Shown here: in pieces, positions 1,292-25,346 of the stretch
Numbering within the stretch: the stretch's first letter is position 1
Layout of the letters: each line of letters starts with the position of its first letter
Source of the DNA: Verrucomicrobiia bacterium
Lineage (GTDB): Bacteria; Verrucomicrobiota; Verrucomicrobiia; Verrucomicrobiales; DEV007
DNA length: 64,000 bases
Assembly (NCBI GenBank): GCA_030427505.1
Contig: JAUICH010000018.1
Coordinates: 62,001 to 126,000 of the forward strand
Direction: 5' to 3'
The notes under the pieces: generated by a model
Database searches by the model: none
Seen by the model: only the letters and a program-made list of their open reading frames with translations
What the model was told of the DNA's origin: nothing
Made by a program: the position numbers and the translations under genes

Positions 1292-3079
1292 ATGCTTGCC
1301 CCCATGGAACGCGCGCCCGACTCCTCTCAAACCCTGCCGACCCCAACGAGACTGGGTCCGTTCTGGCGGAACGCCCTCTTCCTCTCTCTCTGCGCGGCGG
1401 GCCTGGGCGCGGTCGGTTGGGCCTACCTGACGGCGGATGCGATGCCCGCGTCTTCTCTGCTTTCTTCCCTTCAAAGCCCCAAGTCCCCAGCCACGGCAGG
1501 TGTTTCCGATTCTTCCTCTCCAGACCTTTCGGCGGAAGGCAAAGCCGGCTCTGGCGAGTATCCCGATCTCGCCACCACCCTTCGCCGCGTGAACGCGGCG
1601 TTTGAAACGCAGTGGACCGAAGCCGGTCTGGAGCCCGCGCCTCCCGCGCCGTCACTGACCGTGGCCCGCCGCCTTTCGCTGGCTCTGACAGGTACCATTC
1701 CCTCTCTGGAAGAAGTCCGCGCCCTGGAAGAGATCCCCGAGGAAGAACGCCTCACCTGGTGGCTGGACCATCTCTTTCAGGACCGGCGCCATGGCGACTA
1801 TTTGGCGGAGCGTTTGGCCCGCGCCTGCGTGGGGGTGGAAGACGGACCGTTCATCATCTATCGCCGCAGCCGCTTTGTCACCTGGCTGAGCGATCAGCTC
1901 ATGACGAACCGCCCCTATGACGACCTGGTACGCGACCTCATTACTTCTAAGGGGCTCTGGACCAGCGAGCCGGCGGTGAACTTCATCACCGTCACCGCCA
2001 ATCAGGCCGCCGTGGACGCAAAGAAAAAGGGACCGGACGAAGTGAAGCTGGCCGCCCGCGTCACCCGGGCCTTCCTCGGCCTGCGGATCGACTGCATGGA
2101 ATGCCATGACGACAAGTTCGGAGACCGCTGGAAGCAGGAGGACTTCCACCAGCTCGCCGCCTTCTTCGCGGGCACGGACCTCGCGCCCTTCGTGGGCGTG
2201 CGGGACCACGACCAAAACACTTACGAATTCCGTTTTAACGGAGAACTTAAACCGCGCCCCGTGGAAGCAAAGGTTCCTTTCGAGCCTGAGCTGCTGCCGG
2301 CGGATGGCCCCCTGCGCGCCCGGCTCGCTGCCTGGGTGACCGCCCCGGAGAACCGCTCCTTTGCCCGCGCCGCCGTGAACCGCGTGTGGACCCTGCTTTT
2401 CAATCAACCCCTGGTGGACCCGATAGACGACATCCCGCTGGACGGCCCCTGGCCCGGGGCCATGGAAGTGCTGGCGGACGACTTCACCGCCCACGGCTAC
2501 GATCTCCGGCGCCTCATCCGCGTCATCGCCGCCTCCCGCCCCTATCTGCTCGACAGCCGTTCGCTCTCAGACGGACCGCCAGTCACGGACGCTCACTACC
2601 AGAGCTTCGCCGCCTTCCCGCTCACCCGCCTACGGCCGGAGCAGGTCGCGGGCAGTCTTCTCCAGGCGTCCACCCTGAAGACCATCGACGCGGATTCCCA
2701 CATTCTGCGCCGCTTCATGCGCTATGGTCAGCAGAACGACTTCGTAAAACGCTTCGGCGACCTGGGCGAAGACGAATTCACCGACCGGGGCGGCACCATC
2801 CCCCAGCGTCTGCTGATGATGAACGGGAAGGTCGTCGACGAGCGCACCCAGGAAAACCTGGTCCTGAATGCCTCTACCCGCCTGGGCCTGCTCTCTCCCA
2901 CACTGGAAGCCACGGTGGAAACCGCCTACCTTTCCATCTTCACCCGCCGGCCGACGGACGCGGAGCGGGACTACTTCATCACCCAACTCCAGAACGTCCC
3001 CGAGAACCGGCGGAACCGCGCCATGGAAGACTTTTATTGGGTCCTCATGAACGCCACGGAGTTCTCATGGAACCACTGA
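1292..3079 (+). CDS. DUF1549/DUF1553 domain protein (PVC-specific, exported)
   Basis: A 595-residue protein with a hydrophobic N-terminal segment (about residues 27-47) acting as a signal or anchor. It carries the DUF1549 hallmark CMECHDDKFGDRW near residue 268, a CxxCH sequence that looks like a c-type heme site but is conserved in this family, and the DUF1553 tail with ENRSFARAAVNRVW and TDAERDYF. No separate Planctomycete cytochrome domain precedes it, so it is the short form. It sits 22 bp before a DUF1501 gene, the standard partner, and the two are probably co-transcribed. The biochemical role of this pair is not established. An alternative start is the ATG at 1304. Confidence 0.9.
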   Translation: MLAPMERAPDSSQTLPTPTRLGPFWRNALFLSLCAAGLGAVGWAYLTADAMPASSLLSSLQSPKSPATAGVSDSSSPDLSAEGKAGSGEYPDLATTLRRVNAAFETQWTEAGLEPAPPAPSLTVARRLSLALTGTIPSLEEVRALEEIPEEERLTWWLDHLFQDRRHGDYLAERLARACVGVEDGPFIIYRRSRFVTWLSDQLMTNRPYDDLVRDLITSKGLWTSEPAVNFITVTANQAAVDAKKKGPDEVKLAARVTRAFLGLRIDCMECHDDKFGDRWKQEDFHQLAAFFAGTDLAPFVGVRDHDQNTYEFRFNGELKPRPVEAKVPFEPELLPADGPLRARLAAWVTAPENRSFARAAVNRVWTLLFNQPLVDPIDDIPLDGPWPGAMEVLADDFTAHGYDLRRLIRVIAASRPYLLDSRSLSDGPPVTDAHYQSFAAFPLTRLRPEQVAGSLLQASTLKTIDADSHILRRFMRYGQQNDFVKRFGDLGEDEFTDRGGTIPQRLLMMNGKVVDERTQENLVLNASTRLGLLSPTLEATVETAYLSIFTRRPTDAERDYFITQLQNVPENRRNRAMEDFYWVLMNATEFSWNH

Positions 3080-3101
3080 AACACCTCCCCGCCATCCTGA
3101 C

Positions 3102-4406
3102 ATGACCACCAATCCTTCTCCCTTTTCCACTTGCGGCGGCGCGGATCACACCTCCCGCCGCCGTCTGCTGAAGGCCGCGGGCTGCTCCGGCCTGGCTTGG
3201 CTCACGTCTCTGGGCGACGTACTGGCTTTGGACGCGGAAAAGGCCCCCCGCGGAAAACCGGCTAAGTCGGTGATCTTCCTCTACATGGCGGGCGCGCCAA
3301 GCCAACTCGAAACCTTCGACCCACACCCCGGCTCCCCCATTGCTTACGGCACCGAAGCGATCGCCACCGCCGCGAAGGGCATCCAGATCGCCAAGGGCCT
3401 GGAACAGACCGCCACCGTCATGGGCGACGTCTCCCTGGTCCGCTCCGTGGTGAGCAAGGAGGGCGACCACGAGCGGGCTACCTATAATATTAAGACCGGT
3501 TTCCGTCCGAACCCTTCCGTGGTCCATCCCTCCATCGGCGCGGTCATCTGCCATGAACTGGACTCGTCCGGCGTGGAGATTCCCACCCACATCTCCATCC
3601 TGCCCAACCGCTTCGCCGCCCGAGGCGGGTACCTGGGCGCGAAGTATGACGCCTTTAGCATGTACGACCCCGCCCAACCGGTACCGGACGTCAGTCCCCG
3701 CGTCAGCGACGCCCGCCAGGACAAGCGGCTCGAGGCCCTGGACGTCGTGGAGGCCGCTTTTCAGGCCGGCCGCCCCGCCCACCTGGACGACAACAGAACC
3801 CTGCACCGCGACACCATGGCGCGGGCCCGCCGCATGATGACTTCGGACCAGGTGAAGGCCTTCGACATCAGCCTGGAACCCGAGGCCACCCGCGCCGCCT
3901 TCGGCGATTCTCCCTTTGGCCGCGGTTGCCTGGCGGCCCTGCGTCTGGTGGAGGCTGGCGCCCGCTGCATTGAGATCACCCTGCCCGGTTGGGACACACA
4001 CATCAACAACCACGAACTCCACGCCAAGCACATCGCCACCCTGGACCCCGCCTTCGCCGCCCTCATCCTGGGCCTGAAGGAGCGCGGCCTCTTCGACTCC
4101 ACCGTCGTCCTCTGGGGCGGCGAGTTTGGCCGCACGCCCAAGCTCAACGCCCTGGAAGGCCGCGACCACTGGCCGAACGGCTTTACTCTGGCATTAGCCG
4201 GTGGCGGGTTCAAAGGCGGCCGCGTCCTCGGCGCCACGGACCCGAATGGCGAGAACGAACACCCCGACAATCCCGTGGGCGTGGACGACATCCACGCCAC
4301 CATCCAACACGCCCTCGGCATCGATCCCGCCACCGAACTCATGACTCCCGCCGGCCGCCCCATGGCCCTGAGCGACGGGAAATTACTGCATGAGTTGCTG
4401 GCTTAG
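3102..4406 (+). CDS. DUF1501 protein with Tat signal
   Basis: A 434-residue protein. Residues 18-24 (SRRRLLK), followed by a hydrophobic stretch, form a twin-arginine signal. The mature part has the DUF1501 alkaline-phosphatase/sulfatase-like fold, with VIFLYMAGAPSQLETFDP, a central GWDTHINNHE segment, and WGGEFGRTPKLN near the C-terminus. DUF1501 genes are usually coupled to DUF1549/DUF1553 genes in Planctomycetes and Verrucomicrobia, as here. The substrate is unknown. The 3' end overlaps the convergent XRE gene by 4 bp. Confidence 0.9.
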   Translation: MTTNPSPFSTCGGADHTSRRRLLKAAGCSGLAWLTSLGDVLALDAEKAPRGKPAKSVIFLYMAGAPSQLETFDPHPGSPIAYGTEAIATAAKGIQIAKGLEQTATVMGDVSLVRSVVSKEGDHERATYNIKTGFRPNPSVVHPSIGAVICHELDSSGVEIPTHISILPNRFAARGGYLGAKYDAFSMYDPAQPVPDVSPRVSDARQDKRLEALDVVEAAFQAGRPAHLDDNRTLHRDTMARARRMMTSDQVKAFDISLEPEATRAAFGDSPFGRGCLAALRLVEAGARCIEITLPGWDTHINNHELHAKHIATLDPAFAALILGLKERGLFDSTVVLWGGEFGRTPKLNALEGRDHWPNGFTLALAGGGFKGGRVLGATDPNGENEHPDNPVGVDDIHATIQHALGIDPATELMTPAGRPMALSDGKLLHELLA

Positions 4407-23185: not shown

Positions 23186-23211
23186 GTTAGCAAAAAGACA
23201 GGATCGTTGAA

Positions 23212-23278
23212 TTTGGTTCGAAGGAACGGCGGCGACCCGCCGTCACGTATTCGATTGTTTGATGATTGTCGAACCAAA
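23212..23278. promoter_or_regulatory. inverted-repeat operator region between reductase and ArsR-type regulator
   Basis: The divergent promoter region carries a perfect 10-bp inverted pair, TTTGGTTCGA at 23212-23221 and TCGAACCAAA at 23269-23278. A second, shorter dyad TTCGA...TCGAA spans 23250-23273. The sites lie just upstream of both genes and are good candidates for binding the dimeric regulator encoded next door. Which half-sites are used is inference. Confidence 0.55.
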
Positions 23279-23296
23279 ACGAGATACCTTTCACCC

Positions 23297-23638
23297 GTGC
23301 CTCCGAAAACTTCACGAACCTACACCCACCCCGACTTGAACGAGGTGCCCCTGGCCGCCGCCATGCAGGCGCTGGCGGACCCCAGCCGGGTCGCCATCGT
23401 GCGCACTCTCATGGCGGACGGCGGCCGGGAACTGGCCTGCAATGAGTTCGACCTCTGCCAGAGCAAGGCCACAATCTCTCACCACTTCGACATCCTGCGC
23501 GAGGCGGGCATCATCCACACCCGCACAGAGGGACGCCGCTGCCTGTCAAAGGTACGCCAGGGCGAACTGGAAAAGCGTTTTCCAGGTTTGCTGAAACTCG
23601 TGCTCGCCGAAGAAGCAGCGACACCAGCAAAGGCCTAG
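23297..23638 (+). CDS. ArsR-family HTH transcriptional regulator
   Basis: About 113 residues from the GTG at 23297, the best start because it precedes the conserved domain by 30 residues and leaves the operator region free. The winged helix is clear: AAAMQALADPSRVAIVRTLM, then the recognition helix in SKATISHHFDILREAGII, and the wing TRTEGRRC. A Cys pair in ELACNEFDLC may sense electrophiles. It presumably represses the divergent OYE reductase. Its stop codon TAG lies inside the target duplications of two nested inserted elements. Confidence 0.88.
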   Translation: MPPKTSRTYTHPDLNEVPLAAAMQALADPSRVAIVRTLMADGGRELACNEFDLCQSKATISHHFDILREAGIIHTRTEGRRCLSKVRQGELEKRFPGLLKLVLAEEAATPAKA

Positions 23639-23641
23639 CCT

Positions 23642-24121
23642 GAATGGCACTCGGTTAAGCGGGGTGACCGGTCAAGTCGAGCCCTTCAACGGCGGCGACT
23701 GGCACTGACAGATCCCCGGTGAAATCGCTTCTCCGGGGTCTCAGGGCCGGAGGGCCAAGGGCCCGGCGCATACCAGCCTGGGGCGCGAGCCCCAGGAAAA
23801 CGGGTCCCTATGAATATCGAGGGCCGTAGGTCCGGCGCATCCCCCCGGGGATGGCGGCGGAGTCACGGCGCGGCCCGCATGCGCCGGGCCTTCAGCCCTC
23901 GAAATTTGTCAATCCGCCTCACCTGGGCCTTCGGCCCAGGCTGGTATGCGGCGCGCCGTTGGCGCTCATGTCCCGCGAGGACGATCAGCCAGGCCCGGCG
24001 AGCGAAACTTTGGGGCGCACATCCGGCGAGAAGGCCACGCGATACCTTTACCTGTCCGGCAATTGCATCGCAATTGGATCCCGCAACAGAGCCTGTCACC
24101 CCGCTTATCCGAGTGCCATTC
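23642..24121. mobile_element. 480-bp MITE-like element with 27-bp TIRs and 10-bp target duplication
   Basis: The element starts GAATGGCACTCGG and ends CCGAGTGCCATTC. The terminal inverted repeats run about 27 bp with a single mismatch (GGTTAAGC against GGATAAGC). It is flanked by the exact direct repeat GGCCTAGCCT at 23632-23641 and 24122-24131. It has no credible gene. It therefore looks like a non-autonomous DNA transposon. Its centre holds an inverted REP-like doublet (23752-23967). It sits inside the left edge of an older, smaller element. Confidence 0.88.
23752..23967. repeat. inverted REP-like doublet with three hairpins per arm
   Basis: Both arms, read inward, contain GCATACCAGCC, a Pro-Trp-like GC hairpin and TCGAGGGC. 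Hairpins correspond arm to arm but differ in sequence while still pairing: GGGCC/GGCCC against GCGCC/GGCGC, CCTGGGGC/GCCCCAGG (23777-23796) against CCTGGGCC/GGCCCAGG (23922-23940), and GGGCC/GGTCC against GGGCT/GGCCC. This arrangement matches REPIN-type elements. It lies wholly inside the 480-bp element, so either it travelled with it or was inserted into it. Confidence 0.75.
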
Positions 24122-24128
24122 GGCCTAG

Positions 24129-24302
24129 CCTGTATTTCTCACCAGTTCTCGTGGCGAGACGCCGCGAGGCGCGCATTGGCAAGGCGCGCGAAGATTATTT
24201 CGTGGAACTGTATGAGTACATACTGTTCAAGGAAAATTCGAGCGGAACGCCGGCAATGCGGGCCACAGCAAGTCGCAGCCGAAAACTGGTGAGAAATGCA
24301 GG
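24129..24302. mobile_element. 174-bp MITE-like element with CTAG target duplication
   Basis: The ends are CCTGTATTTCTCACCAGTT on the left and, on the right, the reverse complement of CCTGCATTTCTCACCAGTT, followed inward by matching TCG. Flanking CTAG occurs at 24125-24128 and 24303-24306. Removing the element joins the arsR-type gene's GCC-TAG directly to CTAACTGGG. A CTAG duplication fits the YTAR target of IS5-like transposases, though the source transposase is not in the window. The 480-bp element landed later across this element's left edge. Confidence 0.75.
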
Positions 24303-24455
24303 CTAGCTAACTGGGCTTATTTGGGGGCAGGCCCAATGCCGCTCACCGCGCCTTGCCAGCCCAAAAATGGTCTCGCGCCGGTCCGGCCCCAATTTGTCCA
24401 CACTGCCTAGACCAGCGGAAGGCACTGTGTCGTCGATATCGGCAAAAGAATCAGC

Positions 24456-25346
24456 TTAGTTAGCGCCTGACTCGGCGCCCGGAGCCGCCGGAGCTTCGCC
24501 AGTGGACCCGCCACCGCTCCGGCCTTTGTAGGTTTCCAGGGCCAGCTTGGCCTGAACTTGCACGGAACTGGCGGCCACGGTGCCCAGCAGGCCGGTACGA
24601 TTTCCCTCAATGATGCGCTCCACCGTGATCCCAATGGGTTTACCGTCCATCCCGAAGACCGGAACGCCTTGGGTGGTACCAGCAGTCGTCACATAAAACA
24701 CGCGATCCTGCTGAAACACACCGGTAATACGGCCAGGAATGACTGTGGGCATGTAGGCATAGGCCTGGGAAGAACGGGAAAGACCAATGACGGGGTCGCC
24801 GGGATTTGGCGCCGCGCTGGGCTCGCTCAGGTTCAGGCTTTCGATGACTTTGCCCAGTTCCTTGGCTTTAGCCTCATCAGGAAGAATGAAGGCCAGATCC
24901 GCCTCCACCTCTTGGCGAATGACCGTGCCGGGAAGCAAGGAGCCGTCTCCGTAGCTGATCTCCACACGGCTGTACTCCGTCTTGGCGGAGAGAATCTTCA
25001 CGGGATCTTTGTCAGCGCTCACCCGGGCCTGCTGCCCCACCAGCCCCACACTGGGATCGATGGCGCTGTTGGAAACGACGACCAGCCCATTCTCCTCAAT
25101 GGTCACGCCCAAGGTGCGGCGTTGCTGAGGCCGGGCCGGCAATTCGTCTCCCGTGGTCCGGGCGGTCAGATTGCCTTCGATGGTTACGATGACCAAAATG
25201 CCTTTCTTTTCCTCGATCAGCTTCAGGGCCAGATCGCCGATTTCATCAGCTCGCGCCGCTTGACTGAAGATTGCCGACCCAGCGGCCAGCGAAGCGCACA
25301 ACAGCAATGTCAGGAAGGAAGAAAGGGGGAATCTTCTATGGTTCAT
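24456..25346 (-). CDS. exported trypsin-fold pseudoprotease
   Basis: A 296-residue protein with a signal peptide (residues 1-33). The order of features follows a DegP-like chymotrypsin fold: GVTIEENGLVVVSNSAID (80-97) where active enzymes have the catalytic His, EADLAFILPDE (148-158) keeping the Asp strand, GDPVIGL (183-189), and TTQGVPVFGMDGKPIGI (224-240) where active enzymes have GNSGGP. His and Ser are both replaced, so it should be proteolytically inactive and may act as a binding or scaffold protein in the periplasm. No PDZ domain is present. It lies after the rpsD terminator, so it is probably separately transcribed. Confidence 0.7.
   Translation of the reverse strand: MNHRRFPLSSFLTLLLCASLAAGSAIFSQAARADEIGDLALKLIEEKKGILVIVTIEGNLTARTTGDELPARPQQRRTLGVTIEENGLVVVSNSAIDPSVGLVGQQARVSADKDPVKILSAKTEYSRVEISYGDGSLLPGTVIRQEVEADLAFILPDEAKAKELGKVIESLNLSEPSAAPNPGDPVIGLSRSSQAYAYMPTVIPGRITGVFQQDRVFYVTTAGTTQGVPVFGMDGKPIGITVERIIEGNRTGLLGTVAASSVQVQAKLALETYKGRSGGGSTGEAPAAPGAESGAN

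Follow-up and report, generated by a model that had tools for sequence, protein, structure and literature searches.

The closest described counterparts of the two elements reported here are found in the IS4 subgroup, in the IS1380 family, and in a short element of Pseudomonas syringae. For the IS4 subgroup, Table 1 of PMC2266710 gives an end of the form -AATR--------WTW---- and direct repeats of 10–13 bp. MITEPsy1 of P. syringae is a non-autonomous element of 100 nt, which duplicates CTAG or YTAA and was tied by its authors to ISPsy2 (PMC3189936); the passages of that paper on MITEPsy1 describe no stop-codon pattern or stacking. In our literature search, which covered titles and abstract openings, no listed paper reported systematic MITE insertion at stop codons. 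In plant MITE multimers with a TA target, the element's own duplicated target is the site for the next element. These nested MITEs are eukaryotic, whereas elements of the IS4, IS5, and IS1380 types share one bacterial target in the genome described here.

Within the window (the whole stretch of 64,000 nucleotides that was analysed), a 480-bp element of IS4 type (element A) and a 174-bp element of IS1380 type (element B) are nested at the stop codon of an ArsR/SmtB-type regulator gene. Element A is like the IS4 subgroup of PMC2266710 in its end and its 10-bp duplication, and IS4-family transposases are encoded by full-length elements with related ends, which are 1554 and 1621 bp long. However, A has no transposase, and its duplication is centred on YTAR, in contrast to the targets of the full-length elements, which are GGGTCAGTCAA or resemble ATGCCTGRCAT. 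Element B resembles MITEPsy1 in being non-autonomous and in its 4-nt target of the CTAG/YTAA type, but its ends are different (PMC3189936). The end of B, CC[T/C]GCATTTCTCA, recurs together with YTAR flanks in a related genome, on an IS1380 element of 1773 bp, from which B differs in being 174 bp long and in coding for no transposase. A and B are new members of known families; what stands out is that the elements have one target in common and stack at element junctions and stop codons.

Two insertions at the end of an ArsR-type gene

The regulator gene (23207–23638, plus strand) matches HTH_20 (32 bits) and HTH_5 (27 bits); its product, 143 aa as listed with a TTG start, scored 49.1 bits against HTH_metalloreg, under the cut-off of 55. 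The gene terminates GCC-TAG, and this stop codon (23636–23638) lies within the targets of both elements. Element B occupies 24129–24302 (plus strand), has the ends CCTG[C/T]ATTTCTCACCAG, and stands between two copies of CTAG at 24125–24128 and 24303–24306, both read directly. Its inverted repeats (arms 24125–24151 and 24280–24306, 27 nt) are 93% complementary. Element A occupies 23642–24121 (plus strand), has the ends GAATGGCACTCGG[T/A]TAAGC, and is flanked by GGCCTAGCCT at 23632–23641 and 24122–24131, a duplication that is perfect over 10 bp when read directly and by script. The left copy consists of GGC from the gene, then CTAG, then the three bases with which B begins, while the right copy overlaps the left CTAG of B and the same three bases. 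With the target counted in, the arms of A (23635–23671 and 24092–24128, 37 nt) are 89% complementary. Since A and B are both multicopy, with the same ends and different duplications at their other sites, these inverted repeats are not due to chance. The two longest open reading frames in this region, of 160 and 151 aa, both extend from A into B and, thus, are not element genes. Further downstream, a partial copy of an IS5-type family of about 211 bp at full length (family C; 24321–24407, minus strand) has one end only, followed by TAG.

The first-pass annotation had described a 174-bp element with a CTAG duplication at the ArsR-type stop and a 480-bp element with a 10-bp duplication across the left edge of the former. 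Both lengths were exact, and the description of both elements was confirmed to the base. When A and B were excised by script with one duplication each, the joined sequence ...AAAGGCCTAGCTAACTGGG... was recovered, as had been predicted.

The 480-bp element had also been named as the later of the two, and the duplications agree with this order. The left duplication of A contains the first three bases of B, and its two copies match at 10/10 positions; because both copies are identical and hold the first bases of B, we place B before A. It is very improbable that A inserted first and that B later entered the right duplication of A. Either order needs CTAG at the site, but an earlier A predicts, in the window, a left copy of GGCCTAGCTA, which agrees with the actual copy at 8/10 positions, and it predicts 9/10 and 7/10 at two other nested sites in the genome (on contigs C51 and C6), whereas an earlier B gives 10/10 at all three. 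Overlapping duplications make it possible to read the order of insertion.

The sequence shows that B inserted first into the CTAG that holds the ArsR-type stop, duplicating CTAG, and that A later inserted over the left CTAG copy, duplicating 10 bp centred on CTAG. The gene-side copy of the target stays in place at each insertion, so the stop codon is retained. The reading frame had been described as unharmed, and the gene indeed looks intact: its product extends five residues past the C-terminus of the nearest relative.

Relatives were sought in 74 genomes of the family, including the host's own, among which no other genome represented the genus of the window and none gave an empty site at nucleotide level; one locus (L303) that is letter for letter a part of another (L016) was counted with it as one. 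A syntenic locus in another genus (G009) has kept the OYE–ArsR gene pair, at 78% and 58–59% identity. Blastn found no match to A, B, or C in 3.3 kb of this locus, and the DNA past the stop was unmatched to the window. Searches of plasmids and genome contigs with the ArsR-type protein returned no closer relative, all matches being below 60%.

Copies, ends, and family affiliation of the elements

The annotation had proposed a search for other copies of both ends and for transposases with matching termini. Both elements proved to be multicopy in their own genome (6.4 Mb in 56 contigs, an incomplete assembly), and in related genomes an IS4-family transposase was found with the end of A (G059) and an IS1380 transposase with B-type ends (G182).

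Element A is present at 25 places in the host genome. End-to-end pairing gave 14 copies, of which 7 have perfect 10/10 duplications, 2 have 9/10, and 4 have only 5–6/10. The one left was mis-paired (C21); the true pair at 3006–3557 has a 9/10 duplication by its flanks. The four copies with mismatched duplications are at C4:17439–17922, C4:155954–156428, C36:10774–11249, and C52:5067–5610. Recombination or inversion between copies, or faulty assembly joins, are possible explanations for these copies, and the right flank at C4:17922 matches the left flank of the A copy at the end of contig C30. Two short copies of 257 and 282 bp are devoid of the internal part and differ in their break points; the loss looks like independent palindrome deletion, although the internal part may instead be a third nested insert that the short copies lack. 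With its inverted repeats, target duplications, and multiple copies, and with no transposase gene, A is a MITE-like non-autonomous insertion element.

Element B is represented in the host genome by 13 end-paired copies and by fragments. The duplications are identical (4/4) in 11 of the 13 pairs, all of them YTAR; one pair has 3/4, and an 81-bp copy has 2/4. In the order as a whole, the end of B next to YTAR was found in 43 of 239 genomes, the host's own included. By its inverted repeats and target duplications, and without a transposase gene, B is likewise a MITE-like non-autonomous insertion element.

The end of A, GAATGGCACTCGG[TA]TAAG, fits the IS4-subgroup end, and its 10-bp duplication is within the range of 10–13 bp given for that subgroup (PMC2266710, Table 1). 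The element in G059 is 1621 bp long and is bounded by the exact 18-base end of A; its frame of 498 codons encodes an IS4-family transposase (NF033592, 208.4 bits; cut-off 115). Another element, in G101, has the end of A with one mismatch. The host genome contains an IS4 element of its own (NF033592, 169.5 bits; cut-off 115), with an end, GAATGGCACGTAG, that is similar to that of A; this end and its duplication, GGGTCAGTCAA, both differ from those of A. The Y(2)R(3)E(6)K motif was seen by eye in the translated transposases of G059 and of the host. Among elements of other genomes with the end of A, the targets resemble ATGCCTGRCAT, and ATGTCAGGAG is the target of one in the same family. Our search found no full-length insertion sequence combining the exact end of A with a YTAR target. 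We infer that A is moved in trans by an IS4-family transposase.

The host's IS4-family element is present in full at C48:53866–55419 (L133), in GGGTCAGTCAA. Derivatives of about 90 bp at C56:218117–218208, C36:1438–1529, and C52:10656–10746 occupy the same sequence or close variants of it, the C52 copy only on one side; this target is very narrow.

The IS1380 element of G182 (L287:251–2023, 1773 bp) is bounded by B-type ends and encodes a transposase that scored 360.4 bits against NF033539 (cut-off 180). The end that it has in common with B spans about 13–14 bases, and its flanks, CTAG and TTAA, are both YTAR but unequal. No IS1380 transposase (PF13701) was found in the host genome, in a search whose control was positive in 3 of 14 genomes. 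B would be moved in trans by an IS1380-family transposase. An IS5-type parent, suggested by the YTAR target, was dropped when B-type ends were found around an IS1380 transposase. These comparisons support the assignment of A to the IS4 family and of B to the IS1380 family.

Stacking on a shared target and positions at stop codons

Both the nesting in the window and its position at a stop codon recur elsewhere in the genome, which could not be seen by the first-pass annotation. Element A spans a junction of B four times in the host genome: over the left junction in the window (C22), at C45:189203, and on C51, and over the right junction at C6:432. The four 10-bp duplications (GGCCTAGCCT, GCGTTAGCCT, CCGTTAGCCT, and TGGCTAATCC) are all different, and the gene-side flanks have no similarity; by these two features, the nestings look like separate events. 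The existence of four adjacent pairs might suggest that A and B form a composite unit that moves as a whole and whose adjacency was copied around the genome, and the right flanks at C22 and C45 do have 62 bp in common at 82%. This likeness is due to a partial family C fragment in each. In addition, A stands to the left of B in three cases and to the right in one, one of the four pairs has the opposite relative orientation, and most paired copies of A and B do not touch. Given the differences in side, orientation, duplications, and gene-side flanks, we have ruled out a composite unit as extremely improbable, and we retain separate insertions.

These nestings involve 4 of the 25 A copies, against about 0.05–0.11 expected (P 3e-7 to 4e-6) by a chance estimate that takes about 18,400 YTAR sites in the genome and estimated pool sizes. 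Three further repeat families, C (about 211 bp), D (about 192 bp), and E (about 207 bp), start and finish at (Y)TA(R), which A and B also use as a target. In the 433 kb fetched, 22 TA targets are common to two element ends and 122 have one end; 8 of the 22 double junctions involve A. The fetched stretches contain fewer CTAG sites than expected (297 versus 574). Family C occurs at a minimum of 41 main places (a first look gave 136 candidates, and 40 of these were scored), and its parent is an IS5-type element at C48:24434–25289. The IS5 transposase of this parent (G000:C48:24431–25126, L256, minus strand) is without a stop of its own: its stop codon TAG is the flanking target copy beside the element end (TCT GCC TAG).

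An inserted element re-presents the (Y)TA(R) target on either side of itself, where the next element can land; since TAR is a stop codon, gene ends fit the target as well. Insertions at junctions and stops would persist because they do little harm, and A may have some added preference for B junctions. Duplication of the target on insertion seeds stacks of elements.

Stop codons could be counted across the genome. Paired copies were grouped into 53 clusters, and genes were called with a crude script of our own that places gene starts too far upstream. The stop codon of a predicted gene was overlapped by 14 of the 53 clusters, including that of the window. Among control YTAR sites, 511 of 1233 were genic, and stops were overlapped by 62 of the 722 non-genic sites (8.6%; P 1.1e-4 versus the clusters) or 62 of all 1233 (P 2.5e-7). 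Under five gene-calling settings and a slightly different rule, 13–19 of the 53 clusters were at stops (P 2.5e-6 to 6.4e-5) over a non-genic background of 7.1–11.3%. An ORF-length test that uses no gene calls gave 28 of 122 ends versus 231 of 2281 at a minimum of 120 codons (P 5e-5), 36 of 122 versus 396 of 2281 at 80 codons (P 9e-4), and 23 of 122 versus 167 of 2281 at 150 codons (P 5e-5). By family, P at 120 codons was below 0.05 for A and for B and above it for C, which exceeded 0.05 at all three lengths; B did so at 80 codons. For B-like ends in other genomes, where several ORFs run off the fetched stretch, the signal was weak (7 of 47 versus 43 of 740, P 0.024 at 120 codons; for 80 and 150 codons, P was 0.10 and 0.057). 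Nineteen element ends lie on stops; of 17 genes besides that of the window that were run against Pfam, 13 were above the family cut-off, which indicates that most of the overlapped genes are real.

The stop-codon hypothesis was framed after the data had been seen, and purging alone is a serious alternative. Insertions within genes would be lost, and stop codons would merely be among the remaining harmless sites, with no target preference. No predicted gene enters any of the 53 clusters with its 3' part, although 511 of the control sites are genic, and some control sites classed as non-genic may belong to genes that were missed, in which case the true background would be higher. On the other hand, the excess over non-genic YTAR sites was present at all five gene-calling settings and also in the test without gene calls. 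We consider purging alone to be quite possible, somewhat short of an even chance. The excess at stop codons is moderate, and the loss of harmful insertions by purging may account for some or all of it. The low number of clusters inside genes (0 and 1–2 of 53) was dropped as an argument because an inserted element itself breaks the ORF.

The account as a whole, with B and then A at the ArsR-type stop, shared (Y)TA(R) targets, stacking, and stop codons as targets, is in our judgement very probable. It offers a countable rule, by which mobile elements whose target includes a stop codon have a harmless landing place at gene ends.

An apparent excess of clusters between convergent genes (20 of 43 versus 136 of 478, P 0.02) was rejected after a recount (16 of 47, P 0.41) because the neighbour rule had skipped 13 genes with predicted 5' ends inside an element. 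Either the caller over-extends the starts of these 13 genes or the elements supply start codons.

RNA motifs and folds carried by the elements

Element A contains a match to the Acido-Lenti-1 RNA motif (RF01687) at 23751–23796 on the minus strand (40.6 bits; gathering threshold 37) and a second, sub-threshold match at 23922–23966 on the plus strand (33 bits; gathering threshold 37). The motif was above threshold in 7 of 10 further paired A copies. Three more matches at one locus (L138) were outside its A copy. With A, a described RNA motif is thus copied around the genome by an IS4-type element.

Elements A and B both fold strongly (z −8.5 and −9.6). For B, 22 copies were aligned, with 11 from the host genome and another 11 from the genera g2 and g18, at 57–97% pairwise identity. 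Over these three genera, 93.5% of cells pair, and changes on both sides occurred in 38 of 64 pairs; the covariation score was 0.388, versus 0.171 in shuffled and 0.06–0.12 in slid alignments. The copies are related, so there are fewer independent events than cells. The fold favours the plus strand in its consensus energy (−88.9 versus −58.0), and 20 of the 22 members favour plus-strand RNA. Interior pairs found on both strands gave 21 G-U versus 12 A-C, which is not decisive; an earlier count of 58 versus 16 was set aside because it leaned on the plus-strand structure. The compensatory changes could also be created by template-switch repair of imperfect palindromes, but the kept bulges would speak against this repair as the sole cause. 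Selection may act on the fold as RNA or as single-stranded DNA. Element B is a candidate for a structured sequence that is mobile and has undergone compensatory evolution in three genera. The relatives of B with the covarying fold are at L203–L210 and L290–L301.

The strong folds, the Acido-Lenti-1 matches in A, and the covarying fold in B could also be taken to mean that A and B are palindromic repeats or extragenic RNA genes instead of transposable elements. We regard this as very unlikely in view of the exact target duplications, the conserved ends, and the relatives with transposases; structure that is carried by the elements does not displace their reading as mobile DNA. Rfam gave no match over B at E <= 5, and at E <= 0.5 over the loci of four relatives its only match was a tRNA at L298:23–94, outside the B copy at 176–359. 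No intrinsic terminator was predicted in A or B within 23300–24700, where shuffled sequences gave a mean of 1.7.

Mobile elements with folds at gene ends may invite a broader proposal. Three IS families would form a guild on palindromic YTAR, which is a stop on both strands; they would keep the stop, re-present the target, and add folded sequence (the fold of B and Acido-Lenti-1 of A) to the 3' ends of transcripts, and they would be kept for acting on transcripts. We consider this proposal unlikely, and its probability was lowered when the excess between convergent genes was dropped.

Related repeats are also found in arrays. The array at C52:31000–36000 (L139) is without an Acido-Lenti-1 match above the threshold. 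On contig C44, an unpaired A copy has three Acido-Lenti-1 matches in tandem, and at 2237–2420 of the corresponding locus (L129) an internal unit of A is tandemly repeated, together with Acido-Lenti-1 motifs.
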